Source of the DNA: Synechococcus sp. CS-1328
GTDB taxonomy: Bacteria > Cyanobacteriota > Cyanobacteriia > PCC-6307 > Cyanobiaceae
Length of the DNA stretch: 64,000 bases
NCBI RefSeq assembly: GCF_025128095.1
Contig: NZ_JAHLYT010000056.1
Location: forward strand, 1 to 64,000
Reading direction: 5' to 3'
The notes under the pieces were generated by a model, which did no database searches, was not told the DNA's origin, and was given only the letters and a program-made list of their open reading frames with translations. Made by a program: the position numbers and the translations under genes. Positions 16,628-41,244 of this stretch are shown here, one piece after another. The number at the start of each line of letters is the position of its first letter. Position 1 is the first letter of the stretch.

Positions 16628-16640
16628 TTCTGTACTCGCT

Positions 16641-17070: not shown

Positions 17071-17107
17071 GCCACCACGGAAGACAAGGTCAGACGACTT
17101 CTGCACT

Positions 17108-21169: not shown

Positions 21170-24100
21170 CGGGAGAGGGGGACGGGGCAGGACTGAAGGC
21201 GTTCGATCAAGGCGCTGGCCGTCGCATCGGGTGGGTCCTCCGCCAGCCAGCATTGCCAGCCCGCGGCATCAAAAGCTGGTTGGTCGCCTGACTCCAGCAC
21301 CAAGGCCAGGCGCTGTTGAGGCCAGGCCAGATCGGCCATCGGCCCAGCAACGTCTCCCCTGGCTCCTTCCAGCTCGTAGCCGAGATCCGGGAAGGGGATC
21401 TTCTCTTGCAGGAGCAGATCCCGCAGTTTCTCGAGAACGGGCCTTGATGCAGGTTCGGCCAGGTCGAGAGCCTGATCCCATTGGCGCTGCAGCTCGGGGT
21501 TGCTGGCTGTGGCTGCTCCCCTGCCATTGGCTCCCGCCAATCCAGCCACCCACACGGTGGGGGGATCCACGGCGGCGCTCTGTTCCGCCCCTGACCAGCC
21601 TGGGGTGGACAGGAGGAAATGGGGCAGGAACTGGAAGAGGTTGCCCTGACGCAGCCATTCCTGCCAGCTGCTCTGCTGCTGCTGGTCTGAGCTGGCGAGT
21701 TCCGGGTCGTAGTGGATGGAGCGAAAGCTTGCGGCAGGATGCCGGCTGCCATGGCGCGCCTGCTCCAGCAGGTTGAGTGCACTCAGGCCAGGGGCAATGG
21801 CCAGAACCTGGCCCAGCCGACGACCGGGCTCTGGGCCCTGCCACTCGTCCACGTGATCCTCCAACGCCTGATCGGCGATGGCCGCCTTGATCTCGGTTCC
21901 ATCGAGCGCCATAGCACTGCCCTGGGACAGGCAGAACAGCTGTGCCAGCCCCTGCCACAGGCTCTCCGATGGGTTGGCCAGATAGGCCATCAGCAGCTGC
22001 AGGCTGTTGGCTGCCTGTACCTCGCGGGGCATCAGCAGGGGCGGCTGAGGGAGGGACTGGAGCAGCGCCTCTGGCCACCACCTTTCAGTGAACTTCTCCG
22101 GGCTGGTGGCGAAGGCCGGCACCACCCCGACCGCCAAGCCATTGGGCTCCAGCGGGGTCTGGGCGCTGGGTAGCTTCTCGACCACGTCGGACCAACTCAG
22201 CGACCACACCAGATAGCGGCCGCTGCGCTGCAGGGCCATGCGTTGGCGGGCGTCATCGGCGAGGCGGCCGTGGTGGAATTCCCAGCCATCGGTGTAGATG
22301 GCGATCGGCTTGCCCCCTGCGGTGGGGGTGAGCAGGAAGTCGGCGCGGGAGAACTCCGCCACGCCCTCGCCCTCACCCAGGGGCACCTGCTGCTCCAACT
22401 TCCAGGTGGTGGCCGCCGGCCCGCTACCGATCTTGAGGAGATAGCCGATGCGGCCATGGATCACGTCCTTCTTGAGCACCACCGGCACGCCATCCGGGGC
22501 ACCCTTACCGGTGCGCAGAGCCTCGAGGAAGCGGAGCTCGAGTTCGCTTTCGGCTCGACTGTTGATCGTGATCTCTGAAAGGCTGCGATCGGTGGCCTGC
22601 AGGTCATCCCAGCGGCGCAGGATCGCCTGCAGCTGCTCGATAGCGCGGCGCTTGCTGGTGCGCTCGCGATCGAAGCGCTGGCGGTACATGAAGATGCAGC
22701 GGTAGCAGCCGTCGCTGCAGGGGCAGGACTGCAGGGCCGCGAGCGAGCTCTGGAACACCTCGCGCAGATCCTTGCCGCCCTGCTCCATCAACTGGCGCAC
22801 GTAGCCGGTGCCGCCGGGAACTGAATCAAAGAGGTAGAGGAAGGTTTTGCGCTGCTGGCTGCCGGGCTGGGGTTCTTCACCAAGGGCAGAGCGCAGGTGG
22901 TCCACCTTGCCGCCGAAACGATGGCGCAGGCCAAGGTGCAACGCGCCCACGAAGGAGGGCTGGCCCTCGTCATCCCAGAAGCTGGCACCGGGCAAGAGGA
23001 AACGCACCGCCTCGGAGCTGAACTCCCGGTACATGAACAGGAGATTGCGGAGCTGAGCGCTGTCGGGCTGGTCACGGGACTTGCAGGCCCAGGTGTGGTT
23101 CGAGGCCTTGGCGGGGCCACGTTGCACCTTGCCGCAGCTGCGGCAGAGCTCAAACCCCCTGACCCGGAGGGGTTTGCCGGCGATGTTGTGCGTCGCCCCG
23201 ATGGGTGTGAGCTCCCCGAAGTTGATCTCGCGGAAGGTGGTGCTGGCCAGGTACTCGGCGCCAAAGGGAAAGTCTTCGTCGTCCACGGCCAGGGAGATCT
23301 CGCGGCGGGACAGGTCGGGAAGGATCAGCAGTTCGCGGTGGAAGAAGAGTGGATTCCGCTCGTCGGTGTCGTCCCCGAAGCGGCTGCGGGCATCTTCCGT
23401 GGTGGCCTGCACCTGGCGCAGGCGGGCCATCTCCTTGACCTGACCGTGGTCGGCGTAGCCGCTGTGGCCACAGCGAGGGCACTCCTTGCGGTTGTAGTCG
23501 TCGTCGGTTTCGCGGCAGGCGAAGGAACAGGAGGGGCAGAACCGCCAGTGCTCCGGCTTGTTGAGGTTGGGATCGATCTGATCCACCTTCACCCGCCTGC
23601 CCTGGGCATAGAACTGGCCGTCGGGAACCAATTCGCGGATCGCGACGTTGGCCGGCCGCTCGTAGCTGAGGGTCGGCAGCTCCTCGGTGCGCCTGGGGCC
23701 ACCGCCACGAGCGGGCAAGCGTCGCCAGAGCACTGACTTCAGCGTCACGCCGGCTTCAGGGAAGGCGTAGTTGGGCAGGAAGCCCTCGTCGGTGAGCATG
23801 GCCAGCAGTGGCCGGCCATCGAGGTCCTTGCGCAGCTGGTTGTAGGCGATCTGTTCGCGCCGGATGGCGTCTTTGTCTTCCCGCTGCTGCTCCAGCAGGG
23901 ATTGCTCGGGAATGGCGGCGAGCTTGTTGAACCGCTCGCGCAGTTTGGTGGCCTCACTGCGCAGGCGCTTGCGCTCGGCGATCAGCTCCTCGAGCCGCCC
24001 GATCAGGCCCCTGGCGTAGGGCGCAGCGAAGGCACCGGCCTGGCCGGCATCAGGGGAGCTGAGGAAGTAGGCGCGCAACTCCTGGCGGCTTGGCTCCTGC

Positions 24101-27100
24101 AGCTGTTCATCGAAAAGCGCCAGGAAGCGATCAAGCAAGTCGGTCTGTTCGGTGCTGCACCAGCGCAGCCAGCTGTAAGGGAAGGCGTCTGGGATGGTGG
24201 CCTCCTTGCCGGCCCGCTCCACGGCATCGAGCACGGGCTTGAGCTTGCGGGGCAAGGCTTCCGCCGCGATGCCGCTCTGCACCCAGCGATCGATCGTGTA
24301 GGCCAGCAGCTGGCGTTTGAGGATCGCGGCAGCGTCGAGATAGCAGCCGGGGGGGCTCACCTGCCCCTGCAGCATCTCGCGGGGGTCGGAGAAGAAGTAG
24401 AGGTCGTGGGCGGTGCCAGTGACGACAGTGCCGACCATGGCATTGCCATCGCGGCGGCCGGCGCGGCCGATCCTCTGCAGGTAGTTGGCGGGCTCGGGAG
24501 GTACCGAGGCCAGCAGCACGGTGGAAAGATCGCCGATGTTGATGCCCATCTCCAGGGTGGAGGTGGCCGAGAGCAGGTTGGGATCGCTGCGGTACTTGCC
24601 TCGGATGAACTGGGTTTCCAGCCGCTCGCGGTCGGGGCGCTCCAGCAGACCGGTGTGCTCGCGGGCCACGATCCGATGCACTTCTCCGCGCTCGTAGAGG
24701 CGGCGGTAAAGCGGCAGGCCAGCGCGGGGATCGCGCCGGTAGTGGCCTGGGCATTGGCGCACCAGGCAGGGCATGCCTTCCCACACGGGCAGCTGCTCGG
24801 CGAGAACGCTTTCCCCATCGCCACAGCAATCGCAGCGGACCAGCTGGGGTTGGGCGGCGACCAGCAGAACCTGGCGCGGAATCGCCCAGATGTGCTCACC
24901 CCTGGGGCCGGAGAACTCCTGCAGCAGGCCGGCTTCTGTGAGGGCGCCAACGATGGACTGGAGCGCCTCTTTCTGCTGCTCGACGTCGAGGGGTTGGCTG
25001 GTCTCCAGCGTGCGTGCCAACCAGTGCTGGCTCCAGGTGGGTCGGCCCTTCTCGCGCACCAGCTGCTGGAAGCTGCCCTTGCCCCTGTAGCTGGTGAGAA
25101 AGATCGGTCGGGTGGAGGAGCCACCGAACCTTGGGGTATGCAGGATCTGGTTGAACTTGAAGGTGTTCTCCGCTCCGCTGCTGAGGTACTCAGATCCTTT
25201 GCCATCAAGCCCCACCAGCTCGGGAACGGCGATGGCGCCGCGCTGGCGCAGGTGATGCAGCAGCCCCACCACCAGCTGCTGCAGCTGGGGGATGCGGACG
25301 TTGCGCAGCGGTTCCACCTCGTTCTGCAGGCGGGTGAGCAGGGGTGGCAGCAGGTTCTGGATGCGGGCCGGATCCACACCAGCGGTCAGGGAGCCGGCCT
25401 GCTCCACGGAGGAGCCGAGGCGGGAGCGGTAGCCGAATTCGGCGGCCACCTCCCAGCGCAGCCGCTCACAGACGGTTCGCACCAGGAAGCTGTCGGTGCC
25501 GAGGGCCGGTATGTCCTGGTGCTGGAGGTCATCCCATTCCCGCAGCCACTCCAGTTCAGCCGGCAGGAAGGTGGCGGCGAAATCCACCGGATTCGGCAGT
25601 TTCTGCTGCCAACGACTGATCAGCTGGTCTTGCAGCTGATCAAGGAACAGAGGTCCGGTTTCCTGCAGGGTGCCGGTGAGAGCCGTGCGGAAGGAGGTGC
25701 GATAGGCGCGAGCAGCGATGAAGCCGGCGCGATGGGCGGCATCCTGCACCGAATCGGAAAAGGCCAGCAGCTTCTTGTCGCCGTTGAAGGCGGAGGCAAA
25801 CAGCGCGGCGCTCCAGGTGCTGGTGAGGCTGGCGGCCGATGTTCCCACCAGCAGCAGGCCCTGCTGGGCGTTGCAGTAGGGGCAGTCGCGGCTGATGCGG
25901 GGATGGTTGTGCTGATCGAGATAGCCGCACTCGGGCATATCGACCAGCAGCAGCTCGCGGCTCTGGCAGTTGGGGCACACCTCCTTGAGGTCTTTCGGCG
26001 CGTGGATCGAGAGGCAGTCAGTACAGAGCACCTTGAGGCTGGACTCTTCGGGGGAGGCCTCTTGGGGAGAAGCGGCGGCAGGCTGGAAGGGTCGCTGAGG
26101 GAAGAGGTAGCGAACCTCCGGTTGACCGGAGAAGTAGGCCTTGTAGAACGCCCGCAGGTTGCCGGCACGATCGAGGCGATGGCTGCCCTGGTTCAGCAGG
26201 GTGGAGGTCCAGGCGGTGGCACCGCAATCCCGGCAGTGCACCACCGGCAGATGGGCACCGCTCTCCTTGCCGGCCAGGTCGTCGGAGTGAACCAGCTGGG
26301 GCTCGGCCTCCACCGAAGCCACCATGCGCTTGAGCTCCCGCAGCCATAGCTGCACCCGCAGGTTGAGCCAGGGCACCACGACGGGCGTGCCGTCGAGTTT
26401 GTCGGTGGTGCGGCGGGCATGGGCAAGCAGGGCCAGCAGGCTTTCAAGCAGCAGCACCCTGTAACGCAGGGGATAGCGATCCCCGAGGCCGAGCTGCCGG
26501 GAGAAACGCTCCAGCAGCTCCTCGGTGGAACAGGTGGCCGCGGCCTGGCGCACCAGGTTGTGAACCGCCGGCAGGGTGCCGAGCCGCAGACCCAGATCAA
26601 GGCGCCAACCCTGATCAGCCACGTCATCGCCTGGCGCTGGTGGCAGGGTGTCGCCTAACCAGATCTCCGCCTGCTTCTGGATGTACGCCTCGGCGCTGGT
26701 GGCGTGCTCTGGATCCAAGGCCTCCATCGCATCGAGTCCAGGCAGGGGTAGGGCGAAGAGGCCCTCCTCGCCAAAGGCCGTATGGACGGTGAAGAACTCT
26801 TCAGGGCTGAGCCGTTCTTCTTCGATCAACGACTCCGGATCGAAGCGGCTGGCAAAGATCTGCCCGGCGTAGTCGCGCATCGCGCCCCGCGATTCGGGGC
26901 CACCCAGGGTGGCGGAGGTGCCGACGCACACCAGCTCCTCACCGGGGCAGTGGAGCCGATCGCGCAGACGGCGGATCAGGCAGGCGAGATCGGTGCCCTG
27001 GGCCCCGTCGAAGGTGTGGAACTCGTCCACCACCAGATAGCGCAGAACGCTGGTTCCATCCGGCAGCTGGCCGTTGTGCTCCCAGAGGCTCTGCACATGG

Positions 27101-27723
27101 GGCTGCAGCAGCAGGTAGTCGAGCTGCTTGTAGTTGGTGAGCAGAATGTCGGGCGGAGCCTTGTGCAGGGCGTCCTTGTCGGTGATCACGCTGGTGGCAC
27201 TCATCGCCGCCGTTGGCGCGTCGTCGGAGGCGCCGATGTAAAGGCCGGCCCGCAGGCCGGCCAGGGCGGGAATGGTGTGGATCAGATCGGCGATGCGGCG
27301 CGCCTGGTCGGTGGCCAGGGCATTCATCGGGTAGATCAGGATCGCCTTGATGCCCCTCTGCCCCTGGGTGTGCTGCAGGCGGCAATGTTCCAGCAGCGGG
27401 AGCAGGAAGCACTCGGTTTTGCCCGAACCGGTGCCGGTAGCCACCAGGGTGTTGCGGGGCGTGCCAGGCAACAGCCGATCAAAGGCCTTCTCCTGGTGCC
27501 GGTAGGGGGGGAACGGCAACGGGATCTGGGGGAACCAATCGCGCCCAGAGCCCTGGTGGAAGGGCAGTGCCACCGACACGTAGGGCCCCTTCAGCAGCCG
27601 CTCACGATCGGCGAGGAAGCGATCGATCAGCCCCGCGAAGCCCGGCGTGGTGGGGTGAAAGGCGGTGCGAATCGCATCGCAGGCCACCTGCTCCAGTTCG
27701 CTGGCAACAACGGAGGGAAGCAA
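21166..27723 (-). CDS. Giant DEAD/DEAH helicase with DUF1998 and C-terminal nuclease-like domain
   Basis: A 2185-residue superfamily 2 helicase. Walker A GTGSGKTE is near residue 97, DEFH (YLVVDEFHTFDGAQG) near 236, SAT motif CVGTSATLG near 269, and motif VI YLQRIGRAGRRDG near 1088. Several CxxC pairs (residues 490-600, about 930 and 1420) look like zinc ribbons. The DUF1998 cysteine cluster CPCSDGCYRC is near 1668. Near 1815 comes YTDGWEFHHGRLADDARQR followed by SGRYLVWSLSWSDV, a Vsr/PD-(D/E)XK-like segment. Large DUF1998 helicases occur in Druantia (DruE), DISARM (DrmA/DrmB, separate) and Hma-type defence; which subtype this is needs profile searches. It is coupled to the RelE-UvrD gene and reads away from the HigBA pair. 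Confidence 0.88.
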   Translation of the reverse strand: MLPSVVASELEQVACDAIRTAFHPTTPGFAGLIDRFLADRERLLKGPYVSVALPFHQGSGRDWFPQIPLPFPPYRHQEKAFDRLLPGTPRNTLVATGTGSGKTECFLLPLLEHCRLQHTQGQRGIKAILIYPMNALATDQARRIADLIHTIPALAGLRAGLYIGASDDAPTAAMSATSVITDKDALHKAPPDILLTNYKQLDYLLLQPHVQSLWEHNGQLPDGTSVLRYLVVDEFHTFDGAQGTDLACLIRRLRDRLHCPGEELVCVGTSATLGGPESRGAMRDYAGQIFASRFDPESLIEEERLSPEEFFTVHTAFGEEGLFALPLPGLDAMEALDPEHATSAEAYIQKQAEIWLGDTLPPAPGDDVADQGWRLDLGLRLGTLPAVHNLVRQAAATCSTEELLERFSRQLGLGDRYPLRYRVLLLESLLALLAHARRTTDKLDGTPVVVPWLNLRVQLWLRELKRMVASVEAEPQLVHSDDLAGKESGAHLPVVHCRDCGATAWTSTLLNQGSHRLDRAGNLRAFYKAYFSGQPEVRYLFPQRPFQPAAASPQEASPEESSLKVLCTDCLSIHAPKDLKEVCPNCQSRELLLVDMPECGYLDQHNHPRISRDCPYCNAQQGLLLVGTSAASLTSTWSAALFASAFNGDKKLLAFSDSVQDAAHRAGFIAARAYRTSFRTALTGTLQETGPLFLDQLQDQLISRWQQKLPNPVDFAATFLPAELEWLREWDDLQHQDIPALGTDSFLVRTVCERLRWEVAAEFGYRSRLGSSVEQAGSLTAGVDPARIQNLLPPLLTRLQNEVEPLRNVRIPQLQQLVVGLLHHLRQRGAIAVPELVGLDGKGSEYLSSGAENTFKFNQILHTPRFGGSSTRPIFLTSYRGKGSFQQLVREKGRPTWSQHWLARTLETSQPLDVEQQKEALQSIVGALTEAGLLQEFSGPRGEHIWAIPRQVLLVAAQPQLVRCDCCGDGESVLAEQLPVWEGMPCLVRQCPGHYRRDPRAGLPLYRRLYERGEVHRIVAREHTGLLERPDRERLETQFIRGKYRSDPNLLSATSTLEMGINIGDLSTVLLASVPPEPANYLQRIGRAGRRDGNAMVGTVVTGTAHDLYFFSDPREMLQGQVSPPGCYLDAAAILKRQLLAYTIDRWVQSGIAAEALPRKLKPVLDAVERAGKEATIPDAFPYSWLRWCSTEQTDLLDRFLALFDEQLQEPSRQELRAYFLSSPDAGQAGAFAAPYARGLIGRLEELIAERKRLRSEATKLRERFNKLAAIPEQSLLEQQREDKDAIRREQIAYNQLRKDLDGRPLLAMLTDEGFLPNYAFPEAGVTLKSVLWRRLPARGGGPRRTEELPTLSYERPANVAIRELVPDGQFYAQGRRVKVDQIDPNLNKPEHWRFCPSCSFACRETDDDYNRKECPRCGHSGYADHGQVKEMARLRQVQATTEDARSRFGDDTDERNPLFFHRELLILPDLSRREISLAVDDEDFPFGAEYLASTTFREINFGELTPIGATHNIAGKPLRVRGFELCRSCGKVQRGPAKASNHTWACKSRDQPDSAQLRNLLFMYREFSSEAVRFLLPGASFWDDEGQPSFVGALHLGLRHRFGGKVDHLRSALGEEPQPGSQQRKTFLYLFDSVPGGTGYVRQLMEQGGKDLREVFQSSLAALQSCPCSDGCYRCIFMYRQRFDRERTSKRRAIEQLQAILRRWDDLQATDRSLSEITINSRAESELELRFLEALRTGKGAPDGVPVVLKKDVIHGRIGYLLKIGSGPAATTWKLEQQVPLGEGEGVAEFSRADFLLTPTAGGKPIAIYTDGWEFHHGRLADDARQRMALQRSGRYLVWSLSWSDVVEKLPSAQTPLEPNGLAVGVVPAFATSPEKFTERWWPEALLQSLPQPPLLMPREVQAANSLQLLMAYLANPSESLWQGLAQLFCLSQGSAMALDGTEIKAAIADQALEDHVDEWQGPEPGRRLGQVLAIAPGLSALNLLEQARHGSRHPAASFRSIHYDPELASSDQQQQSSWQEWLRQGNLFQFLPHFLLSTPGWSGAEQSAAVDPPTVWVAGLAGANGRGAATASNPELQRQWDQALDLAEPASRPVLEKLRDLLLQEKIPFPDLGYELEGARGDVAGPMADLAWPQQRLALVLESGDQPAFDAAGWQCWLAEDPPDATASALIERLQSCPVPLSR

Positions 27724-27897
27724 GTTGCGGGGCCGTGCGGCAGAAGCAGGCTAAGCGAGATCGCTGGTCTGCCAAGCGGTTTGAACCATTCAGCCACTGC
27801 TTAGCGGCCCCGCCTGCACGACCGGCGCTGCGAGACGACCCAAGGCCTGGACGAACCAGCCTGTTGCTCCCATAATGGGAGGACACTGCCTTGCGAC

Positions 27898-28194
27898 GTG
27901 CGCATCATCGCCAAGCGGACGCTCGTGCAGTTCTGGGAATCAGGCCATGGCGATGCCGAACAACCCCTCAAGGCATGGCATGCCGTCGCCAAGGCGGCCA
28001 GCTGGAGCGAACCTGCCGAGATCAAGGCGATGTTCTCATCGGCAAGCTTTCTGGCCAACAACCGGGTGGTGTTCAACATCAGCGGCAACAAGTATCGACT
28101 GATTGCCAAAGTTGAATACCGCCTGAAGGCGATTTACATCCGCTTCATCGGCACCCATGCCGACTACGACAAGCTTGACGCTTCCACGCTATGA
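27898..28194 (+). CDS. higB: HigB-type toxin (mRNA interferase)
   Basis: The 98-residue protein matches the HigB family: MRIIAKRTLVQFWESG at the start, then AKAASWSEPAEIKAMF, NNRVVFNISGNKYRLIAKVEY and YIRFIGTHADYDKLD. Members cleave mRNA on the ribosome and are neutralised by the downstream antitoxin. The stop overlaps the antitoxin ATG by 4 bp. It is divergent from the giant helicase gene, with 174 bp between, and is the first gene of the cassette embedded in the defence operon. Confidence 0.93.
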   Translation: MRIIAKRTLVQFWESGHGDAEQPLKAWHAVAKAASWSEPAEIKAMFSSASFLANNRVVFNISGNKYRLIAKVEYRLKAIYIRFIGTHADYDKLDASTL

Positions 28195-28664
28195 CCTCCA
28201 CACTCCGCCCCATCCAACCCATTCGCACCGAGGCCGACTACGAGAGCGCCCTTCGTGAGATCGATCTCTGCCTGGATGCCGACGAGGGGAGTCCCGAGTT
28301 CGAAAGATTGGAAGTTCTTTCGATCCTGGTTGACGACTACGAGGCAAAGCACCATGACATTGGGCCGCCCGACCCCATTGCCGCAATTCAGTTCGCCCTT
28401 GAGCAACGTGGCCTAACCCGAAAAGACCTTGGGGACGTGATCGGCAGCAGTGGACGTATTTCCGAGGTGATGAACAAGCAGCGCCCGCTGACGCTGGCCA
28501 TGATCCGGAAGCTCATTGCCAAGTTTGACATTCCCGCAGCGGTCCTCGTACGCAGCTCGGAAGCCCCATCTGCAAAGGAAATCAGCACGAATGTGAGCCC
28601 AAGAGGGCAGTCGCATACTGGGCATCGAACCAATCGGCCTAAGACTGGAGTTGCAGCAGTCTGA
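28191..28664 (+). CDS. higA: HigA-type antitoxin (XRE-like HTH)
   Basis: The 157-residue protein is the partner of HigB. An N-terminal region (PIRTEADYESALREIDLCLDAD) typical of the long HigA type precedes an HTH: FALEQRGLTRKDLGDVIGSSGRISEVMNKQRPLTLAMIRKL. A low-complexity tail after residue 125 (SEAPSAKEISTNVS and onward) is longer than usual and may be partly dispensable. HigA proteins repress their own promoter, so the divergent region 27724-27897 probably carries its operator and might also influence the adjacent helicase gene. Confidence 0.9.
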   Translation: MTSTLRPIQPIRTEADYESALREIDLCLDADEGSPEFERLEVLSILVDDYEAKHHDIGPPDPIAAIQFALEQRGLTRKDLGDVIGSSGRISEVMNKQRPLTLAMIRKLIAKFDIPAAVLVRSSEAPSAKEISTNVSPRGQSHTGHRTNRPKTGVAAV

Positions 28665-28789
28665 TCTGACGCAGGTTTGTTCAACAGCTGGCGAACCGTG
28701 AGCGTCATAGACAACGCGCCATTGCCTCCTTGAATAAACAACGAGCTAATTCACTCCACAGAAGAACTGGTTCATGATATTCCTATAAG

Positions 28790-30406
28790 TTGTGTGGCAT
28801 CGACCAGCCCGCAGCAGGCTTGACGGTGGCGCGCTATCGAGACATAGCTGTGAATGGCCGAGCCGAATCTCCAAGCGAAAGCGACCAATTGAACGGGATT
28901 GCGAGTAGAAAGAGTTCAGCTATCCCACCCCCCTTGGACGACTCCACCCCAGATGCCGTCGGTGGAGGCGGCTATGACCCAGAGGCGATCAAGTCTGGGA
29001 TCCTGCAGGAAATCGCTGATCTGAAGCAAACCGTCCAATCCTTCGGGGTCCAGGCGATCAAGGACGGCACCTGGTTCAACAAGTTCCTCAATAGCTGCCT
29101 GGGCAGCTACGAGCGCAAGGTGATGGAGCAGGGCGGGGCCGCCTACCTCCAGGGCAAGTACCCCGGGCTGCCCATTGACGCGGTTGCCGGCAAGCTCTGC
29201 GAACTGGCAGAGAAAAACGCAGCCATTGCCGGTGGGCTTTCGGGAGCCGCGGCCAGTTCAGTCGCGCTCTCCGCAGGGGCGTCCCTGCCTGCTGCGATCT
29301 CGGCTGTGATGGCCGAAGTGCTGTACACCGTGCGCCTCCAGTTGCGGCTGGCCTTCGACTTGCATCTTCTCCACGGCATCCCCATGGATGCCGATGATCC
29401 GGAGGATCTGATCAGGCTTTTCGCCGTGGTCTATGGAGTGAAAGTCGCTGAGGTGGGAGGTCTGGGCGTCAAGGCTTTGGGTCCGGAGGTTGCACGGGCC
29501 CAGCTGTTTCGCCTGATCCATGGCAACACCAAGGTGATCCAGGGCGCGGCGAGATCGGTGCTTGGCCCACGGATCGCCAAGCAGGTGACCCAGAAGGCGA
29601 TGATCAAGGCTGCTGTGCCGATTGTGGGCGTCGGGATTTCAGCCGGCTGGAACTACACCACCACCCGGATGATTGGAACCCGCGTGCGGCATGGCGTACG
29701 GGTGTCGGCGGCGTTGCGGGAAGAAACCAGACGACTGCAGGGGCAGATCGGCCGCAATGAACAGGCAGAGGTGGCGGTGCTGGAGGGCCTGATGGCCTTG
29801 GCCCTGGCCGACAGAAACTTCGATGACAAGGAACGGGAGGTGTACCTCACCTTCCTCAAGCAGCTGGCCTTGCCGGGAGAGGAGCTTCAGCGGCTGGCAG
29901 AGCAAGTGGATACGGATCTCGACGCGGTCTGCACGGCCTTGCGTTCGATTCAGGAGGCCGCCAACCGGGAATCGGTAGCGCGTGTTTTTTGCCTGATCAC
30001 CGCTGCCGATGGCGAGCTACAGACCGCTGAGCAGGAGGTGCTGGCTCGGCTGCTGGAGGCCCTCGGCCAGGAGCAGCTTCTGGAGGAGCAGCCCGCCTTG
30101 GCCAAGCGGTTCCGCCGGGAGGATGGCGCGTTCGATCAGGCGCTTTTCGCCGCAGGAGATGTGGCCAATCGGGCGGGGGCCAAGGTAGGAGAAGCTCTTG
30201 GCTGGGCCGGCAAGCTGTTCAACAAAGACAAGCCGGCGGAGTCGGACGGCTCAGCCGTGGTTTTCGAGACAACGGTGGAGGAAAAAACCAATGAGGTGAT
30301 CCTGGCCGGGATGGAGAGGCTCACCCAGCGGTGTGCGGCTGGTGAGCTGAGCCAGGATGAGTACAAGGTTCAGTTCGCGGTGCTGGTGGAGCAGCTGAAG
30401 ACATGA
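28790..30406 (+). CDS. EcsC-family protein with TerB-like C-terminal region
   Basis: Up to 538 residues from a TTG at 28790; in-frame GTG codons at 28826 and 28850 are alternative starts. Residues 90-310 resemble EcsC: a long helical, partly membrane-active region with glycine/alanine-rich stretches (AAIAGGLSGAAASSVALSAGASLPAAISAVMAEVLYTVRLQ, shown in part; then AAVPIVGVGISAGWNYTTTRMIG). Residues 325-425 look TerB-like (LEGLMALALADRNFDDKEREV, CLITAADGELQTAEQE), a domain used in stress and phage-defence proteins. A C-terminal short helix follows. The stop overlaps the next ATG in an ATGA, so it is made together with the PD-(D/E)XK-like protein. Function unknown; a membrane sensor or pore-forming effector is a reasonable guess. 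Confidence 0.7.
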   Translation: MCGIDQPAAGLTVARYRDIAVNGRAESPSESDQLNGIASRKSSAIPPPLDDSTPDAVGGGGYDPEAIKSGILQEIADLKQTVQSFGVQAIKDGTWFNKFLNSCLGSYERKVMEQGGAAYLQGKYPGLPIDAVAGKLCELAEKNAAIAGGLSGAAASSVALSAGASLPAAISAVMAEVLYTVRLQLRLAFDLHLLHGIPMDADDPEDLIRLFAVVYGVKVAEVGGLGVKALGPEVARAQLFRLIHGNTKVIQGAARSVLGPRIAKQVTQKAMIKAAVPIVGVGISAGWNYTTTRMIGTRVRHGVRVSAALREETRRLQGQIGRNEQAEVAVLEGLMALALADRNFDDKEREVYLTFLKQLALPGEELQRLAEQVDTDLDAVCTALRSIQEAANRESVARVFCLITAADGELQTAEQEVLARLLEALGQEQLLEEQPALAKRFRREDGAFDQALFAAGDVANRAGAKVGEALGWAGKLFNKDKPAESDGSAVVFETTVEEKTNEVILAGMERLTQRCAAGELSQDEYKVQFAVLVEQLKT

Positions 30407-31278
30407 AATACGAACAGATCACCAAGCTCTCGATCAAGAGCCACCCCGAGCTCACTGAGCGATGGGTGCAGGACCGCATTGCTGAAAACCCTCAGATCCT
30501 TGGGCTGGGGGATGTGGTGCTCAAGGACAAGGAGCGCATCCATCCGAGGGCCGGCCGACTGGATCTGCTCCTCCAGGACGCGGAGGCCAGCCACCGCTAC
30601 GAGGTGGAGGTGCAGCTGGGCAAGACGGATGAATCCCACATCGTCCGCACCATCGAATACTGGGACATCGAGCGCAAGCGTTATCCCCAGTACGAGCACA
30701 CGGCGGTGATCGTGGCGGAAGAGATCACGTCCAGATTCCTGAATGTGATTTCCCTGTTCAACGGCACCATCCCCCTGATCGCGATCCAGATGAGCGCAGT
30801 ACAGCTCGCTGACACGGTTTCGCTGCTGTTCACCACAGTGCTGGATGAAGCCCGCTTCGGGTTGGTGGACGAGGACGAGGAGGTGCAGGAGGTGACCGAT
30901 CGCGCCTATTGGGAGACGCGGGGTTCGAAGGCCACCGTGGCCATGGCCGATGAGGTGCTCAAGCTGGTTGCGGAGTTCGCTCCTGGCCTGGAGCTGAAGT
31001 ACAACAAGTTCTATATCGGCTTGGCCACCAACGGGCAGCCCAACAACTTCGTGCAGTTCAGGCCGCAGAAGAACGCCTTGCGGGTGGATGTTCGCTTGCC
31101 ACAATCCCAGGAGACAGAAGCCACTATCGAGGCCTCGGGGTTGGATGTGATGGACTACGACAAGCGCTGGGGACGCTATCGTCTGCGACTCAACAAGGGA
31201 GAAGTGGGAAAGTTCGCCGAAGTTCTGAGTGCGCTTGCCAAGCAGGCCTTTGTGGGGGCTGGAAAGGGTATTGAATGA
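30403..31278 (+). CDS. PD-(D/E)XK nuclease-like protein of unknown role
   Basis: The 291-residue protein has a nuclease-like core: D54 in AGRLDLLLQD, then E67-V-E69-V-Q71 in YEVEVQLGK, followed by the helix HIVRTIEYWDIERKRYPQ. This D-(n)-ExQ spacing with the flanking strand and helix fits the PD-(D/E)XK fold. The C-terminal 100 residues (YNKFYIGLATNGQPNNFVQFRP, then DVRLPQSQE) resemble the DNA- or nucleotide-contact region found after such cores in uncharacterised proteins. Its ATG overlaps the EcsC-TerB stop. Nuclease activity is inferred from pattern. Confidence 0.65.
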   Translation: MKYEQITKLSIKSHPELTERWVQDRIAENPQILGLGDVVLKDKERIHPRAGRLDLLLQDAEASHRYEVEVQLGKTDESHIVRTIEYWDIERKRYPQYEHTAVIVAEEITSRFLNVISLFNGTIPLIAIQMSAVQLADTVSLLFTTVLDEARFGLVDEDEEVQEVTDRAYWETRGSKATVAMADEVLKLVAEFAPGLELKYNKFYIGLATNGQPNNFVQFRPQKNALRVDVRLPQSQETEATIEASGLDVMDYDKRWGRYRLRLNKGEVGKFAEVLSALAKQAFVGAGKGIE

Positions 31279-31407
31279 TCTCCCACCAAGTGTCGGTCTT
31301 AAGCATGTGCTTTTGCTCAACAACCAATATACTCTTTCGTCGGCGAAGGAGTCGAAGAATGAGTGTAGCAAGTTCGAGGTCCACGCTGAATCCATGAGAC
31401 AGGAACG

Positions 31408-31866
31408 ATGACCATCCTCACCACTGTTGTTGCTGGTGTTCTGGTCTTTCTTATTGGGCAGCTTGTGCTGAAATGCGTGATTGAGCCCGTGCAGGCACTG
31501 AAGGCAACGATCGCACGGGTCAGCAATCTACTGCTGCTCTATCAGGCCAAGCTAACGAATGCATCATGCGAGGATGCAATCGCCGAAGACATCAAGCGGT
31601 TGTCAGCGGATATCATTTCTGATTCCTATCATATTCTTTGGTTCCCTGTATCCCGTCTGGCTTTTGGCTTGCCTTCAAGAGAAGCGTTATTGAACGCAGC
31701 TAGAGAGCTCAATATGATTCATTATGGAATGCTCCCGGCTGCAAGGAATACTGAGGCGACCGGAGGATATGGCTCGACTCCAAGCCGGGCAATGCGGAAC
31801 ATCAATGCGATGGAGCGAATCGGCAAGCTTCTCAGGGTCATGACTGATTATTCAACTAGCCCATAG
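31408..31866 (+). CDS. Small protein with one N-terminal membrane helix, unknown
   Basis: The 152-residue protein starts with a clear transmembrane segment (TILTTVVAGVLVFLIGQLVL) followed by an aromatic and leucine-rich helical domain. No family recognised. Its DNA is visibly AT-richer than its neighbours; the row 31621-31680 has 27 of 60 G or C. It lies 129 bp downstream of the nuclease-like gene and converges with the methylase gene (55 bp between stops). Its foreign composition suggests a recent addition to the embedded cassette. Confidence 0.6.
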   Translation: MTILTTVVAGVLVFLIGQLVLKCVIEPVQALKATIARVSNLLLLYQAKLTNASCEDAIAEDIKRLSADIISDSYHILWFPVSRLAFGLPSREALLNAARELNMIHYGMLPAARNTEATGGYGSTPSRAMRNINAMERIGKLLRVMTDYSTSP

Positions 31867-31921
31867 CCCTTGCTGCCCGTTCGATTGTTCAATAATGCGA
31901 AGCAGAAAATCGCTCCAAGAC

Positions 31922-34900
31922 TCATGCGGAGAGGAACTCCCAGGCTATCCGATAGTCCCCCACCCGATCACAAAGATCAAACGGCGCCTGATAGATGATC
32001 GTGCGCTCGACGCCCCCCCCGGGGAGCGTGTCATCGAGGATGGTGCGGGAGACGGTGCCGGAGGCCATCCCCTGGATGTCTTCCCATCCGGTGGTCTTGT
32101 TGGCGCCGCGGCCTGAGCCCTTTCGGGGGAAACCGACGCCGGAGAGGCCCTTGCTAGCGGTGAAGACGATGCGACCGTTCTGGTCGTACCAGGTATCGCG
32201 TTCGTATTGCTGCATCACCGGGAACTGCACGCGGTAGATGGTGATCAGTTCTTCGAGGGTGAGCTTGAGAGCCTGGGCCACCAGCACATCGATCTCCACC
32301 AGGGCCTGGCGGCGAGCGTAATCGGTGCGCAAGGCGCAATCGCGCTGCCAGGTGGGGGTGAGGTTGGTGAAGAACTCGTTGGGGAGGCGGGGATCCTGTT
32401 TGGCCCAGCGTTGCTGGCGGAAGGCTTCATCCCAGCATTCGCTCCAGAGATCGGCGTAGTGGGTGGTGAGGCAGTTGAGGGTGAGGGTTCGCAGCTGAAG
32501 CTCAGGATTGCTTTGGAGGAGAGGGAAGGATTCCCAGGTGTAGTGAAGATTGCTTCTACCAGTTGTCTTGATGAAGAAATCGGCGATCAGGCTGAAACCA
32601 AAGCCTGCCTGTGCAACAAGGGCTTCAGTGCTTTTTAGAACTGTTGTCTGAACACCATGGATGTGTGCTATTCCAGGGGGAACGATCGAGGCAATGTAGG
32701 TGCGCTCGCCGGCTTGACTCAGCATTCCCCGGGCTGCAATCCGATAAAAGTCCGTAACCGGTTTCTTCTCCCCCCAGGGCACCTGCGGAGTTCGGGCACT
32801 ATACTCAGACGGCGCTACATCCGGCCGGTAGTTGGTGCGGGGCAGGTAGTCGTCCGGCAGGCTGGTGAGATCGAGACAGTCGTAGTGGCCCTTTTCCGTG
32901 CAGATGGCACGAGGTGATTTGTAGAGAGGTGAGCCTACGTAGAAATGGGGGCCCGAGAGCACCAGCTCGGTGGCATCCACAGGAAAGCTGGTGTCGCGTC
33001 GGATGGTGCCGTCTTTCTTGACGGCGTTGGTTTCGTCCCACATCGCCGTGGCGTAGTACTCCCTTTGCAGATCACCCAGGCGTTGGGGAACCGCTGCATA
33101 CTTCTCCAGCACGCTCTGCAGTTGCTGGGAATGCAACGCCGGCAAACGCGCCTGGCGCGCGGGCGTACTCGGTTCGTCGTAAAGCTGGGCGTAGAGGGCC
33201 AGGCTCTGCTCGCCCACCGGTATCAGGCGCTGGCGGTGACCAGATGTATTCCATCTTCCATCTGCAGTCTTGATTCCAGGGACTGTTCCGTTCCCGTCAT
33301 GACTAAAACATGTGTCGATCGCCTTGGGCGCGAAAAGGTTGGCAAGATGAATAAAACTAGGTTGGCGTGGGGATCCATGGACATTGATGCCGAATCGTCT
33401 TGTTCCTCCAATCGGGAAGAGGATCAGTTCGTTCTCGAATTGGAAGTGATTGCGCAGCCGCCCATAGAGAACCTCCCGCAGAGCCCCACCCTTAGGGTCG
33501 TCGTACACCCCCTCCGGATGCAGAAAGCCACTCACTCCATGTGTTGACGCCGCCCGCCAGGCCTGGGGCAGGAAGCACTTGAACAGGTTGGTCTGACTGC
33601 CCTTTAGCAGCGGGTAGTTTGCCACCGCCTTGAGAAACGCCTGGCTGCCCGCCAAGCCCACGTACTCCTCCAGATACGCCGCCTGTAGAGGGGGATGATC
33701 CGCGAAGGCCTCGGTGCGCACCTTGGCCAGATCGCTGGCGCTGAGCTTGCGCACCAGCACCATAGGGTCCACATCGCCGATAATCCCCTTCTCCTCCCAC
33801 TCCACTCTTAGCCAGGGCGGGTTGCCCACGAACAGATCGAAGCCGCCGCCCTGGAGCACATCGGCGAACTCCAGATCCCAATGCAGGAAGCGCTGCCGTT
33901 CGGTGGTGGCCTCAACCAGCTTCAGGCGCGGGAGATCATCCAGCAGCTTGGCCTTGTTCACGTACCCGTGGCGATCGGAGAAATCCACAGCCAGCTGTTT
34001 GGGTTGGGTATCGGGCAGTAGCTGCAGCTGCCCTTCCTCCCCTTCCAGCACCGATTCGATGTCCCCAAGAACACAACTCAGATCATTGAGCCATTCCTCC
34101 CGGCTGGGAAGCAACCGCGCCTGATCCAGCGGCCAGAACCACAGGGCGCACCAGTAGTCCATCGCCAGCTTCAGCCGCAGCCGTGCGTTGGCATTTGCCA
34201 CGCCATCGCCTGCCACCTCCTGGGCCTGGATGCGGTCCTTCAGGCTCAGGGGCTTGGCCTCTCCCTTGGCCCCATCACCCGGTTCCTCCCACACCGGCAG
34301 TGGATCGGTGGTGCGCTCCCTCACCTGTGCCAGCTCCGGGATCCACTGCTGCCACAGCCCGTCCACCAGGCGGCTCAGCCGCTGCAGGGTGCGGATCTGC
34401 TGCTCGCTGAACGGTGCCTTGATGGCCGCGGCCTGCCAGCGCTTGCAGCGTTCGATCTGCTCGGGCACCAGTCCCTTGACCACCTTGTCGCCATAGGCGG
34501 CCATGCCCGGATCAGGCAGCAGGAAATGGAAGATTGCGTCCTCCGGCAGGGGCGCCTCCCAGGCCAGTTCCTCGGGGGCGTGCTCATGCCAGAGTTTGGG
34601 AGGAGTGGCCTTGCGGCCCGTGCCGGTGGGGAGCTGGCTCACCCGATAAATCTGGCGACGGGCGCCGATCAGGGAATTGCCCACATGCAGCTGCTGGCCG
34701 AACCAGGGCACGAAGGCGCGGCCGTTCTCCGGTTGGTAGATGCTGTTGAGCCACAGGCTCACCTCTGCCAGCTCAACCGCCACTGGGTTGAGGTCGATGC
34801 CGAACACATTACGGTCGGCCAGGCGCATCTTCACCTTCTGCAGCTCGGTGTTGTAGCGCTCATGGCTAATCGTGCGGCCCGTTTCCTGCTGGCGCAGCTC

Positions 34901-36817
34901 TAGGTAGGACTGGGCCAGCTGGTCCACCACCTCGTTCAAGAACGCCGCCGAACCCATGGCCGGCTCGCACACCTTCAGCTCCAGGATCTCGGTCGCGGAT
35001 TTGCCGGGCAGCAGTTCCTTGAGGGCGTACTTCACCAGGCACTGGGTGAGCGATTCGGGCGTGTAGTAGCTGGCGCTCTTCTCCCGGTCGCGGCCGGCCA
35101 GGCGGTAGATGAAGCTGCCCTTGGGGTAGCACTTGGCACTGCCGGTCTTGGGGTCCACCACGATCTCGTTGGCCTTGTAGGCCGTGAGCCGCTCGGCGGT
35201 CACGAAGTGGCCCACATCCAGTTCGTCGTGTTCCTGGCCGCTGGCCTTGGGAGCGCCATTGCCATCGGCCTCGTCGTCACCGCCGGGGTCCTCCTCTCCC
35301 TCGTCGTCGCTGCTGGCGCTCTTCTTCTTCGGAGCCGGCTGAACCTCGTAGAGGTCTAGTTCTGCGAAGAAGCCGCGGAAGCTGAGCAGGGCCTCATACA
35401 CCGCTCCCAGCTGGTTGATACCCAGTTGCGAGTAGCTCACCCGACCGCGGCGTTTTCCCTTGCCCTCCTTGGTAAGCGACATCAGCTCGATCACCTCCCG
35501 CAGCACCACGTTGCGGAAGCGCACCCGGTTCAAGGTGGGCACACGCTCTGGGTCGAACAGATGCGCCTTGAGCGGCGTCAGCCGGAAGCTGTCGTGGAAG
35601 GGGTCCTCCGCATCGGCTAGGGGCAGCTGGGCTGTTTCGTCATCGCGCTTGGGGTAGCCCTCCCAGATCATCTGGAACAGCCGATCCAACGAATCACTGA
35701 TGTAGGTGCTCTCCTTGTCTTCCTCAGTCCCCAGCTCGGCAGAATCCATGTCGCGCAGGCTCTCGAGGCTGTAGCCGAGGCGATACACGTCGCTGCCCAT
35801 CGGCGCATAGCCCAGATCAGGCCGGCTTTCGATGTAGAAGAGAAACAGCAACCGATACATGTACCGGAGGCACTCAAAGGTAAGGGCCTGGGCGTCGATT
35901 TCGCCCTTGTAGACCCCTTCGCGGGCCTTGGTTTTCAGCCACGTGATGGCCTCATTGCCCAGCAGCTCAATCGAGCGGCGCAAGGCGTACTTGAGATCAG
36001 TGGAAACTTCGTAGGCGTGCTTGTGGCTGTTCTCGTCCAGCTCATCGAGGAGCGGCGTGCCACCCCCGCTCGGACAGGTGTGTTCGCGGTGCAGCAAGGT
36101 GGCCGCGGCCAGCAGGGCGTCGGGGTTGTTCTCCCCCAGCAAGGTTTCCAGCTCGAAGCGCAGCAGCCGTGAAGCGGCCCACTTCTGGCGATCGATCAGC
36201 AGCAGCTGGTCGCGGCTCACTGCCAGCACCCAACGCGGCGGGGTCTCCTGGCCGAACACCCGCTCGCTGATCAGCTCCTGCCAGGTTTCGCAGGGTTGGC
36301 CGTCCATGCCAAGCACCACCTTGCCGTCTGTGATGTCGGCGACTTGAGTGGCCCAGCTGGTGGCGATGGTGAGATCCAGCGGGTCGGCTGCCTCATCGCT
36401 GGGGTTGAAGCACTCCACAACCCACAGCCAGGGGTCGCCTTTGGCATTAGGCACCTCCGCAAGCAGTGGCACCTGATAGGCATCCCCGCCGATCAGCACC
36501 GGCTCGGCCTTGGGTTCATAGGGATAGCCGAGTGCCTCCAGCAGTGGCTGGAAGAACAGCTCCCGCTGCAACCTGAGCCGCTCGGCGGGGTCCTTGGTGA
36601 TTCCCTGCTCCGCTTCCCGCAGCTTCTGCCAGGGTTTGCGTAGGGCCTTGAAGCGTTGCTCCGGGGTGCTGATCTCAGCAGTGGGGTGTGCCTCCTGCTC
36701 GGCCTTGGCCTGGTCGGCCCAGCGCTCGCGCACCTTCTTGATGTCGCCCGTGAGCACGCTCTCGAGGTAGTGGGCGGAATAGAACTCGTTGGCGTTACTG
36801 ATGCCGGGTAGTGCCAT
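31922..36817 (-). CDS. Large Eco57I-like adenine-specific DNA methylase of the defence operon
   Basis: A 1631-residue DNA N6-adenine methylase. The N-terminal 600 residues are helical and include an acidic/serine linker near residues 495-525 (SDDEGEEDPGGDDEADG). The methylase core has SASYYTPESLTQCLVKYAL, SAM-binding motif VCEPAMGSAAFLNEV near 620, GIDLNPVAVELAEVSLWLN, and catalytic NPPW (FVGNPPWLRVEW) near 995. The remainder should hold target recognition and a helical C-terminus. Size and neighbours match methylases of DISARM class 1 (DrmMI) and Hma systems, where methylation marks self DNA. The start is 4 bp after the SNF2 gene stop. Two AT-richer patches (around 32521-32700 and 33240-33500) lie in the putative recognition part. 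Confidence 0.88.
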   Translation of the reverse strand: MALPGISNANEFYSAHYLESVLTGDIKKVRERWADQAKAEQEAHPTAEISTPEQRFKALRKPWQKLREAEQGITKDPAERLRLQRELFFQPLLEALGYPYEPKAEPVLIGGDAYQVPLLAEVPNAKGDPWLWVVECFNPSDEAADPLDLTIATSWATQVADITDGKVVLGMDGQPCETWQELISERVFGQETPPRWVLAVSRDQLLLIDRQKWAASRLLRFELETLLGENNPDALLAAATLLHREHTCPSGGGTPLLDELDENSHKHAYEVSTDLKYALRRSIELLGNEAITWLKTKAREGVYKGEIDAQALTFECLRYMYRLLFLFYIESRPDLGYAPMGSDVYRLGYSLESLRDMDSAELGTEEDKESTYISDSLDRLFQMIWEGYPKRDDETAQLPLADAEDPFHDSFRLTPLKAHLFDPERVPTLNRVRFRNVVLREVIELMSLTKEGKGKRRGRVSYSQLGINQLGAVYEALLSFRGFFAELDLYEVQPAPKKKSASSDDEGEEDPGGDDEADGNGAPKASGQEHDELDVGHFVTAERLTAYKANEIVVDPKTGSAKCYPKGSFIYRLAGRDREKSASYYTPESLTQCLVKYALKELLPGKSATEILELKVCEPAMGSAAFLNEVVDQLAQSYLELRQQETGRTISHERYNTELQKVKMRLADRNVFGIDLNPVAVELAEVSLWLNSIYQPENGRAFVPWFGQQLHVGNSLIGARRQIYRVSQLPTGTGRKATPPKLWHEHAPEELAWEAPLPEDAIFHFLLPDPGMAAYGDKVVKGLVPEQIERCKRWQAAAIKAPFSEQQIRTLQRLSRLVDGLWQQWIPELAQVRERTTDPLPVWEEPGDGAKGEAKPLSLKDRIQAQEVAGDGVANANARLRLKLAMDYWCALWFWPLDQARLLPSREEWLNDLSCVLGDIESVLEGEEGQLQLLPDTQPKQLAVDFSDRHGYVNKAKLLDDLPRLKLVEATTERQRFLHWDLEFADVLQGGGFDLFVGNPPWLRVEWEEKGIIGDVDPMVLVRKLSASDLAKVRTEAFADHPPLQAAYLEEYVGLAGSQAFLKAVANYPLLKGSQTNLFKCFLPQAWRAASTHGVSGFLHPEGVYDDPKGGALREVLYGRLRNHFQFENELILFPIGGTRRFGINVHGSPRQPSFIHLANLFAPKAIDTCFSHDGNGTVPGIKTADGRWNTSGHRQRLIPVGEQSLALYAQLYDEPSTPARQARLPALHSQQLQSVLEKYAAVPQRLGDLQREYYATAMWDETNAVKKDGTIRRDTSFPVDATELVLSGPHFYVGSPLYKSPRAICTEKGHYDCLDLTSLPDDYLPRTNYRPDVAPSEYSARTPQVPWGEKKPVTDFYRIAARGMLSQAGERTYIASIVPPGIAHIHGVQTTVLKSTEALVAQAGFGFSLIADFFIKTTGRSNLHYTWESFPLLQSNPELQLRTLTLNCLTTHYADLWSECWDEAFRQQRWAKQDPRLPNEFFTNLTPTWQRDCALRTDYARRQALVEIDVLVAQALKLTLEELITIYRVQFPVMQQYERDTWYDQNGRIVFTASKGLSGVGFPRKGSGRGANKTTGWEDIQGMASGTVSRTILDDTLPGGGVERTIIYQAPFDLCDRVGDYRIAWEFLSA

Positions 36818-39749: not shown

Positions 39750-40681
39750 GGCTGGGTTTCGAGGGGGGTGGACACGATCTCTTCCAGGGCCTCCACGTAG
39801 GCCTGCTGGCGACTGACAAGCCAGGCCGCCAGCTTTGGCCAGGTGGCTGGCTCGCGGGCATCGGCATCCAGCGATTGCGAAAGTCCGTAGCCCTCGCCGT
39901 CGCTGATCGGTACGGCCAAGCGCTGCTCGAGCTCCTGCTGATGCTGCAACAGCAAGTCCCTGGACTCCTCCAGGGATTGCCCACGCCTGCCGCGCACGAA
40001 GATGCCGCAGCAGTCCACCGAGATGTAGGTCACCACCACCAGGCTGCTGTTCTTGAGCGGATGCCAACGGGAGCTGGCCGCATTCGCGGAACCCCACTGG
40101 GCCTGTTCGGGGTGGAGCTCCAGCAGCTTGCTCCAGAAGGCCAGGCGGAACTGGCCCAAGGCCGAGAGCTCACCGGCTTGGGAGGCCACCTGCTGCTGGA
40201 GCTGCCGGTCCCAGCCGTTGGGCTTCGCCATCACTTCGAACAGGGGAGCGATGGCTGAATCGCCGATCCGCACCGCCTTCACCTGCACGGCAAAGAACGC
40301 GAAGGGATCGACGGTGTGATCGTTCAACCAGTTGATCGCCGAGAGATGGGGGTCACGGAAGTCGCTGGCGATCCAGATGATCACCTGGGCCTCAAGTCCA
40401 GCCAGATAGGTGAGGATCTGGCCTAAGTGGTTGTGATCGGTTTGTTCCAGTTGGTTCTCGATCAGCACCAGGGAGCCGTCCTGGGGGTTACGGGCCAGCA
40501 GATCGGCTGAGAACGAGCCCACGCTCACCTCCTGGCCCTCCAGTTCCAGGGGAATCCCCAGTGCTGCGGAGAGGCGGTTCAGGTTCTCTGCCAGCCAAGG
40601 GGTGAAGCTATGGGCCTCATGGGCCCAGGCTTGCCTGAGATCCACGGTCTCCAGCTGGCCCAGGCTGGGGAGCTCCTTCAT
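39746..40681 (-). CDS. PD-(D/E)XK protein with DUF4268-like C-terminus, first gene of the defence operon
   Basis: From ATG 40681 the protein has 311 residues. Residues 15-110 match the uncharacterised family with WxxExxxFTPWLAEN, and a PD-(D/E)XK core: D60 in SFSADLLARN and E75-N-Q77 in SLVLIENQLEQTDHNHLGQ, then ILTYLAGLEAQVIIWIASDF. The C-terminal half (AFWSKLLELHPEQ, then ISVDCCGIFVRGRRG) resembles DUF4268. The open frame continues to 40834 but the upstream part is not conserved-looking. Its stop overlaps the SNF2 helicase start, so it is probably part of the same system. Whether it cuts DNA or only binds it is unknown. Confidence 0.78.
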   Translation of the reverse strand: MKELPSLGQLETVDLRQAWAHEAHSFTPWLAENLNRLSAALGIPLELEGQEVSVGSFSADLLARNPQDGSLVLIENQLEQTDHNHLGQILTYLAGLEAQVIIWIASDFRDPHLSAINWLNDHTVDPFAFFAVQVKAVRIGDSAIAPLFEVMAKPNGWDRQLQQQVASQAGELSALGQFRLAFWSKLLELHPEQAQWGSANAASSRWHPLKNSSLVVVTYISVDCCGIFVRGRRGQSLEESRDLLLQHQQELEQRLAVPISDGEGYGLSQSLDADAREPATWPKLAAWLVSRQQAYVEALEEIVSTPLETQP

Positions 40682-41150: not shown

Positions 41151-41244
41151 ACTCCGGGAACAGACCATTCCTGGAGCCATCGTTCCGTCAGAGGCCACGG
41201 TGTCCTGGGGAAGTGATCTGACCCAATCGCTTGGATCTCCGGCC

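Follow-up and report, generated by a model that had tools for sequence, protein, structure and literature searches.

The armB–armC junction of ARMADA type II operons as a probable slot for interchangeable defence cargo, with a five-gene example from Synechococcus

A stretch of 64,000 nucleotides from Synechococcus sp. CS-1328 (the window; positions 1 to 64,000 of contig NZ_JAHLYT010000056.1, assembly GCF_025128095.1) carries a minus-strand defence operon that is interrupted by five plus-strand genes. By gene set and order, the operon matches an ARMADA type II system (armABCD), and the five genes fill the space between the methylase gene armB and the giant helicase gene armC (Table 1). We conclude, with a probability of about 0.85, that the armB–armC junction is an intra-operon cargo slot for interchangeable defence genes and that the five genes of the window are one such set.

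The first evidence is the position of the gaps. Among 74 assessable loci, window included, the armB–armC gap measures at least 300 bp in 46, and its median over all 74 is 1640 bp. In the remaining 28 loci the gap is −4 to 206 bp and the genes frequently overlap. They abut in the E. coli plasmid p803Rt (−1 bp), in Microvirga (2 bp) and in Martelella (1 bp), and overlap by 4 bp in Nostoc sp. FACHB-973 and Cyanocohniella. Because armB and armC lie less than 300 bp apart in these 28 loci, the five-gene set is read as an insertion, and the first-pass annotation was right to speak of an interrupted operon. The other junctions are mostly closed, with gaps of at least 300 bp in 6 of 52 loci for armA–armB and 2 of 70 for armC–armD. 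Fisher tests give p = 5.9e-9 for armB–armC against armA–armB and 2.0e-15 against armC–armD; both values ignore relatedness and overstate independence, because loci were sampled for their similarity to the window ArmC, near copies among them. Where armA–armB and armB–armC are both readable (n = 50), 20 loci are filled at armB–armC only, none at armA–armB only and 6 at both; for armC–armD and armB–armC (n = 53) the counts are 27, none and 1. In 44 of the 46 filled slots the G+C content is lower than in the adjoining armB and armC. In six loci (L021, L024, L032, L035, L048, L080) armA and armB are separated by 0.7–1.5 kb, and this may be a second slot that is filled less often.

The order reported for type II in the portion of the preprint of Bell et al. 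(2025, PMC12458937) at hand is BrxHII-like ArmA, PglX-like ArmB, YprA-like ArmC and GajB-like ArmD. The same order is found on the minus strand of the window from 39749 to 18632, with the armB–armC slot as its sole interruption. ATGA overlaps couple the PDC-S11 gene to armA (refined start 39749) and armC to armD (refined start 21169), and armA and armB are 4 bp apart. The earlier observation that the cassette runs against the operon and breaks a tightly coupled set is thus borne out. ArmC combines DEAD, Helicase_C and MZB domains in one polypeptide of 2185 aa (Pfam), and its best PADLOC match is DruE of Druantia (3e-93). The armB product is an Eco57I/N6-type methylase with an NPPW motif (Pfam, PADLOC). 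ArmD of type II carries a RelE-like domain at its N-terminus; for the window ArmD, no RelE-type match appeared in the Pfam scan or among 25 of the 43 PADLOC matches. DISARM was rejected, as its DrmA helicase and MZB protein DrmB should be separate genes, while here DEAD and MZB share one protein. Hma was rejected on three grounds: an m5C methylase HmaB would be expected in place of the Eco57I/N6 type, no HmaB or HmaC occurs among all PADLOC matches of the window ArmC and the E. coli ArmB, and the window ArmA matches HmaA less strongly than DrmD. In the portion of PMC12458937 at hand the order is termed strict and cargo between armB and armC is not mentioned; the slot sets the operons described here apart. 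In contrast to a strict order, a Cylindrospermopsis curvispora plasmid (L040, 18001–34674) carries the genes as C-D-A-B. At one further locus (L016/L017, G009:C21, ~16606–25440) ArmB residues 1–1171 are fused straight to ArmC from residue 1369 onward. This deletion spans the slot and removes both gene ends of armB and armC; ArmA there matches as two pieces, and a frameshift is possible.

The second evidence is turnover. On a tree of ArmC N-termini (n = 73) the slot must have switched between its filled and empty states 18 times or more, and well-supported branches force at least 12 of these switches; the tree does not separate gain from loss of cargo. Close relatives hold different genes. The ArmC N-termini of L077 and L079 are 97% identical and no cargo is shared (0%); the ArmC N-terminus of L032 is 94% identical to those of both L034 and L035, with 0% and 2% shared cargo, respectively. 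The window and L020, L021 and L044 are 87, 85 and 83% identical in this part of ArmC, with 0% shared cargo each. Low sharing is seen for L080/L114 (15%) and L018/L023/L024 (7–10%), partial sharing for L033/L034 (50%), L095/L102 and L020/L045 (36% each) and L034/L035 (22%). Two Nostoc strains have 99% identical ArmC N-termini: NIES-25 (L039) carries a 630-bp insert with a 188-aa open reading frame (ORF), while FACHB-973 (L049) shows the 4-bp overlap. In L034 and L035 the slot edges are alike (93% over the first 336 bp, 84% over the last 81 bp) and the interior differs, and the last 80 bp of the L032 and L035 slots are 88% alike. Conserved edges around a differing interior suggest replacement by recombination across conserved flanks. 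Comparing homologous operons at the methylase/helicase junction, as the first-pass annotation had proposed, thus reveals that unrelated sets of genes take turns at this one place and that the operon is collinear elsewhere, as expected for embedded cargo.

The third evidence is the nature of the cargo (Table 1). In 38 of the 46 filled slots, window included, at least one cargo protein was scanned by profiles. PADLOC was run on 30 cargo proteins, a single one from each slot and in some cases a shorter one, with E up to 1e-10 and in part 1e-8, and 22 of them match its models. The remaining eight slots (L024, L029, L034, L039, L046, L048, L104 and L109) were compared by BLAST. Systems are named from one signature protein, so that a name does not establish a complete system. 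Neither Pfam nor PADLOC, at the thresholds applied, matches two large slot proteins, of 685 aa (L077, 2200–4257) and 812 aa (L035, 13413–15851). One could argue that the junction, which sits in a mobile island, is merely insertion-tolerant, for instance if armC is driven by a promoter of its own, and that the cargo is clutter drawn from defence islands and unselected for function at this place. The island is indeed mobile, slot G+C is low, and some cargo is not clearly defensive, such as a lysozyme domain (L035), DUF4277 (L033) and Hsp70 (L023). We regard this explanation as unlikely, since the cargo consists of long open and often recognisable defence genes, 117 of 145 ORFs of at least 90 aa are co-oriented with the operon, and armA–armB and armC–armD mostly remain closed in these operons.

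The five genes of the window are all present as first annotated. The labels HigB, HigA, TerB and PD-(D/E)XK-like hold; no match gave the additional EcsC label of gene 3. HigB and HigA, like TerB and the nuclease, overlap by 4 bp. A profile search of the genome with PF05015 gave no match for HigB, and PF09907 is the right family. HigB also matches the HigB-like component of PD-Lambda-2 (1.3e-37). The second component of that system carries a C-terminal peptidase, according to the passages of PMC9519451 at hand, and a third component is needed for defence. HigA of the window, with 157 aa, covers only positions 4–127 of the 402-position second-component model, and the TerB protein that follows has no PD-Lambda-2 match in the PADLOC scan. 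The pair was rejected as PD-Lambda-2 because its second protein is without the peptidase part. Gene 3 probably begins later than the annotated 28790, near 28934, because similarity to a homologue in genome G391 (53% identity) steadies only near residue 63. The predicted structure of the TerB protein is a failed model (pLDDT 45), and no relatives were found in viral contigs. In G391 (L155, 9028–18427) the genes for HEPN_Swt1-DUF499, a sacsin-like protein (SACS, below cut-off) and TerB follow one another and may form a defence operon, either new or related to BREX.

Gene 4 has no Pfam match above cut-off and no sequence-level match in the PDB. Its AlphaFold model (pLDDT 82, pTM 0.51) predicts a PD-(D/E)XK superfamily fold: residues 18–141 match the nuclease domain of EndoMS/NucS (2vld_A, Z 13.1, root-mean-square deviation 2.1 over 108 residues; 5gke_A, Z 12.6), with Z 12–13 over 108–114 residues in all and a Foldseek E of 9.8e-6. 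The usual PD-(D/E)XK active-site motif carries ExK, and BglII uses ExQ. In gene 4, D54, E69 and Q71 are invariant in all 8 aligned sequences, and Q71 stands at the usual K position, with the residue match to EndoMS read by eye. The putative active site thus appears to be of the ExQ form. In this it differs from EndoMS/NucS, as it does in its C-terminal domain, which is YdhG/MotA-like (Z 7–9; this may be merely a common arrangement). Gene 5 has no Pfam match and is probably a real gene family, because 344 plasmid records, of which 317 are from Escherichia, carry distant relatives (31–33% in most matches listed). In one plasmid examined, the relative lies near HTH and RelE/ParE genes.

A conserved five-gene block was rejected. 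Nuclease homologues at 50–62% identity were found on two plasmids, four IMG/VR contigs and in one cyanobacterial genome, and none in phage records; three further Rhizobium plasmid matches and several from Bradyrhizobium lie outside the neighbourhood comparison. The 9 nuclease loci (8 places, as L125 = L127) have no TerB match nearby, in flanks of 1.5 kb (L125) to 5–6 kb or more (others), and no nuclease adjoins the G391 homologue of TerB. None of the five genes was matched in the other 73 assessable slots (tblastn, E up to 1e-3), and a HigA match in L038 falls outside its slot. The operon core is thus not always accompanied by these genes. The cassette seems to be put together from genes that move independently, because nuclease, TerB and the transmembrane (TM) protein occur apart elsewhere and none match other slots. 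The suggestion that the slot is a prime place for an undescribed system stands for the slot in general and for the window cassette only in part; the idea of one undescribed five-gene system is weakened by the same separate occurrences.

The five genes could instead be dedicated accessory or regulatory parts of this particular ARMADA that act with the arm proteins. Their fixed place inside the operon would fit, and a HigA-type repressor could regulate it. We consider this very unlikely, given the absence of matches in the 73 other slots, the different cargo of the closest relatives (ArmC 83–87%), the antisense orientation and the four genes with which the E. coli ARMADA works in the portion of PMC12458937 at hand. 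A different possibility is that HigBA alone is the working part, an addiction module that stabilises a 30-kb element, with the other three genes as passengers. HigB and HigA are open and overlapping, and toxin–antitoxin genes occur in other slots (AbiE in L044 and L033, HepT-like in L120, Unstab_antitox in L053). This is improbable in our view: nuclease and TerB look like working genes because the putative active-site residues are invariant (8/8) and the TerB homologue sits in another defence-like operon.

Operon and cargo ride on an integrated element of 30.2 kb (window 10947–41150), because a 47-bp repeat pair at tRNA-Thr encloses them and an empty site is found in a genome of the same genus (G001). 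There, the sequences of window 2541–10992 (93%) and 41100–48660 (87%) are adjacent at tRNA-Thr, with an overlap of 50 bp, as expected of an unoccupied site. The gene beside the tRNA is a weak integrase candidate: three plasmid proteins match it, one of them annotated as tyrosine recombinase, and no Pfam match, no PF00589 flag in the genome, no PDB relative and no phage match was found. E. coli ARMADA type II likewise sits on tRNA-integrated elements, at tRNA-Phe and tRNA-Leu, according to the preprint passages at hand (Bell et al. 2025, PMC12458937). An assembly artefact or mis-joined contigs could be suspected in a draft genome of 72 contigs. This is extremely unlikely, since filled slots are also present in other phyla and in the single-contig genomes G284 and G331, and the element borders match the empty site.

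Several observations weigh against the cargo-slot interpretation. The genome scan retained the best 80 of at least 563 loci, and 6 of 34 plasmid records were opened. The sample consists of the loci that match the ArmC of the window best, and the 74 loci are non-independent; the count includes near copies (L045/L046, L074/L075) and cases in which one metagenome-assembled genome supplies two loci (L044/L046, L080/L114). The junction is empty in 28 of the 74 loci. Filled and empty states are mildly clustered on the ArmC tree (22.5 changes on average after shuffling, with 13 of 500 shuffles reaching a value this low), and some related pairs keep the same cargo, such as L025/L029, L045/L046 and L100/L109 (88%). 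PADLOC gave no match for 8 of the 30 cargo proteins (L023, L032, L033, L035, L070, L077, L088, L105), and for some of the others the match comes from a generic helicase or ATPase domain. Cargo that is entirely antisense, as in the window, is seen in only 3 of 45 slots, TerB protein and nuclease are not found together elsewhere, and the promoter scan is near chance (3 found, 1.3 expected). Terminators were likewise near expectation (3 found, 3.9 expected), Rfam gave no match within 18–42 kb of the window, and the stretch 27724–27897 has no second copy in the genome.

The set of 74 was reached from 104 loci or pieces entered. Three duplicates were dropped (L026, the L038 record; L047, the L023 record; L051, the L028 record, with L028 itself not entered), and 27 of the remaining 101 could not be assessed, with armB absent, cut by a contig end, deleted or rearranged. 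Short or junction-less loci were left out of entry (L001–L015, L019, L022, L028, L031, L037). L104 was scored as filled despite an uncertain armC start and is missing from the ArmC tree. Because long cargo genes escaped a codon-usage gene caller, one based on amino-acid composition took its place; it errs as well: L020, L046 and L061 differ between callers, and L048 gave no ORF.

Table 1. Features of the window and cargo assigned in the slots of other loci
Feature	Position or slot	Strand	Basis
att-like 47-bp repeat: 3' end of tRNA-Thr (10917–10988) and next 5 bp	10947–10993	+	
tyrosine recombinase-like gene (375 aa), beside tRNA, weak evidence	11142–12269	+	27.8% to annotated recombinase, E 5e-7
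DUF3854 protein, further inside element	13832–16627	+	Pfam
armD, GajB-like UvrD helicase, downstream of armC	18632–21169	−	refined start 21169; Pfam, PADLOC
armC, YprA-family helicase (DEAD, Helicase_C, MZB)	21166–27723	−	Pfam, PADLOC
armB–armC cargo slot, 4198 bp, five plus-strand genes inside	27724–31921		
HigB-type toxin, 98 aa	27898–28194	+	PF09907 5.6e-33; PADLOC PD-Lambda-2_A 1.3e-37
HigA-type antitoxin, 157 aa	28191–28664	+	HTH_3 2.6e-5
TerB-domain protein	28790–30406	+	TerB 1.1e-8
predicted EndoMS-fold PD-(D/E)XK-type nuclease (D54, E69, Q71)	30403–31278	+	predicted model, alignment
small protein, apparent N-terminal TM segment	31408–31866	+	relatives on plasmids
armB, PglX/type IIG-like N6 methyltransferase with NPPW	31922–36817	−	Pfam, PADLOC
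armA, SNF2/BrxHII-like helicase	36822–39749	−	refined start 39749
PDC-S11 family gene, upstream of armA	39746–40834	−	PADLOC
second copy of 47-bp repeat, one mismatch	41104–41150	+	
GajA (Gabija)	L057		Pfam/PADLOC
HamB (Hachiman)	L071		Pfam/PADLOC
ZorA2 (Zorya II)	L095; L102		L102 similar by BLAST
MkoA (Mokosh)	L069, L083		Pfam/PADLOC
AbiEii/AbiEi (AbiE)	L044, L033; L104, L034		L104, L034 by BLAST
PsyrT (PsyrTA)	L058		Pfam/PADLOC
GmrSD/HEC-05	L020, L025, L045; L027, L029, L046		L027, L029, L046 by BLAST
SIR2	L103		Pfam/PADLOC
Schlafen AlbA	L061, L070		Pfam/PADLOC
PDC-M07A	L108		Pfam/PADLOC
AbiLi-like ATPase	L054		Pfam/PADLOC
kinase	L063		Pfam/PADLOC
patatin	L080		Pfam/PADLOC
Fic	L121		Pfam/PADLOC
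HepT-like	L120		Pfam/PADLOC
Unstab_antitox	L053		Pfam/PADLOC
dynamin with SNF2 helicase	L021		Pfam/PADLOC
sacsin	L027		Pfam/PADLOC
AAA_5 with DUF2357	L032		Pfam/PADLOC
PIN	L117		Pfam/PADLOC
less telling: Hsp70; phage lysozyme domain; DUF4277	L023; L035; L033		Pfam

Embedding of one defence system in another is already known, as the first-pass annotation had noted for helicase/methylase systems, and it is the ARMADA slot that appears new; no account of it was found in the literature searched, whose supplements were not read and may show it. Hma, a helicase/methylase system, carries other defence genes between its own genes (Payne et al. 2024, via citing passages in PMC11411939 and PMC12255303), and one embedded family, HEC-05, is found in ARMADA slots too. 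As a host Hma differs, with an m5C methylase and an ATPase gene alongside the helicase HmaA in the parts of PMC8565338 at hand. For BREX, the available parts of PMC12839542 describe effectors of the PD-(D/E)XK, HNH, OLD, Schlafen and HEPN kinds that lie within core loci and share the back-up interpretation; the host system is another one, and no single fixed junction is described there. Type I restriction–modification operons with embedded TgvAB or DarTG2 share the within-operon embedding, and hsdS–hsdR is termed a potential recombination hotspot in the passages of PMC11411939 and PMC12255303 at hand. They differ from ARMADA in the host system and, in these passages, in fewer cargo types.

The operon, the slot and its turnover, the cargo families, the element with its empty site and, as a predicted model, the nuclease fold are read from sequence. 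We propose the following course, in which direction of change, exchange route, promoters, back-up role and any co-operation of the genes are our interpretation. We take abutting armB and armC as the starting point. Unrelated defence genes would have been placed at the junction and then replaced in many lineages; the probable route is homologous recombination across the 3' end of armB and the 5' end of armC, both of which are conserved. The window cassette would be read antisense to the operon from its own promoter or promoters, and most likely serves as a back-up layer once phages escape or inhibit ARMADA. HigB would stop growth and make loss of the island costly, the nuclease would cut DNA, and for the TerB and TM proteins a role at the membrane, as sensor or effector, is possible.

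A second variable region, separate from the slot, lies within ArmB. Between L049 and L039 the first 900 residues are 92–99% identical, the next 100 79%, residues ~1000–1500 38–67% and the end 96%. The pairs L049/L050, L079/L070 and L023/L024 resemble this pattern, and in several close pairs the C-terminal 100 aa are conserved beyond the variable block. The block is not seen in L074/L075 and is weak in the window against L021 or L044. We infer that residues ~1000–1500 form a target-recognition region. Beyond that, it is tentatively conceivable, though doubtful, that ARMADA II acts as a vehicle and that the armB–armC slot is its dedicated site of exchange, where back-up systems are recruited and swapped across phyla, with the ArmB block as a second cassette and TerB plus the ExQ nuclease as an undescribed defence system. 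If this were true, specificity and back-up effector would evolve as two cassettes. The armB–armC junction offers a fixed, easily searched position where defence genes collect, and the slot cargo without assignment (for example the large proteins of L077 and L035 and the TerB–nuclease pair of the window) is therefore a short candidate list for new defence systems. It also makes testable whether embedding leads to synergy or back-up, or to co-transfer only.

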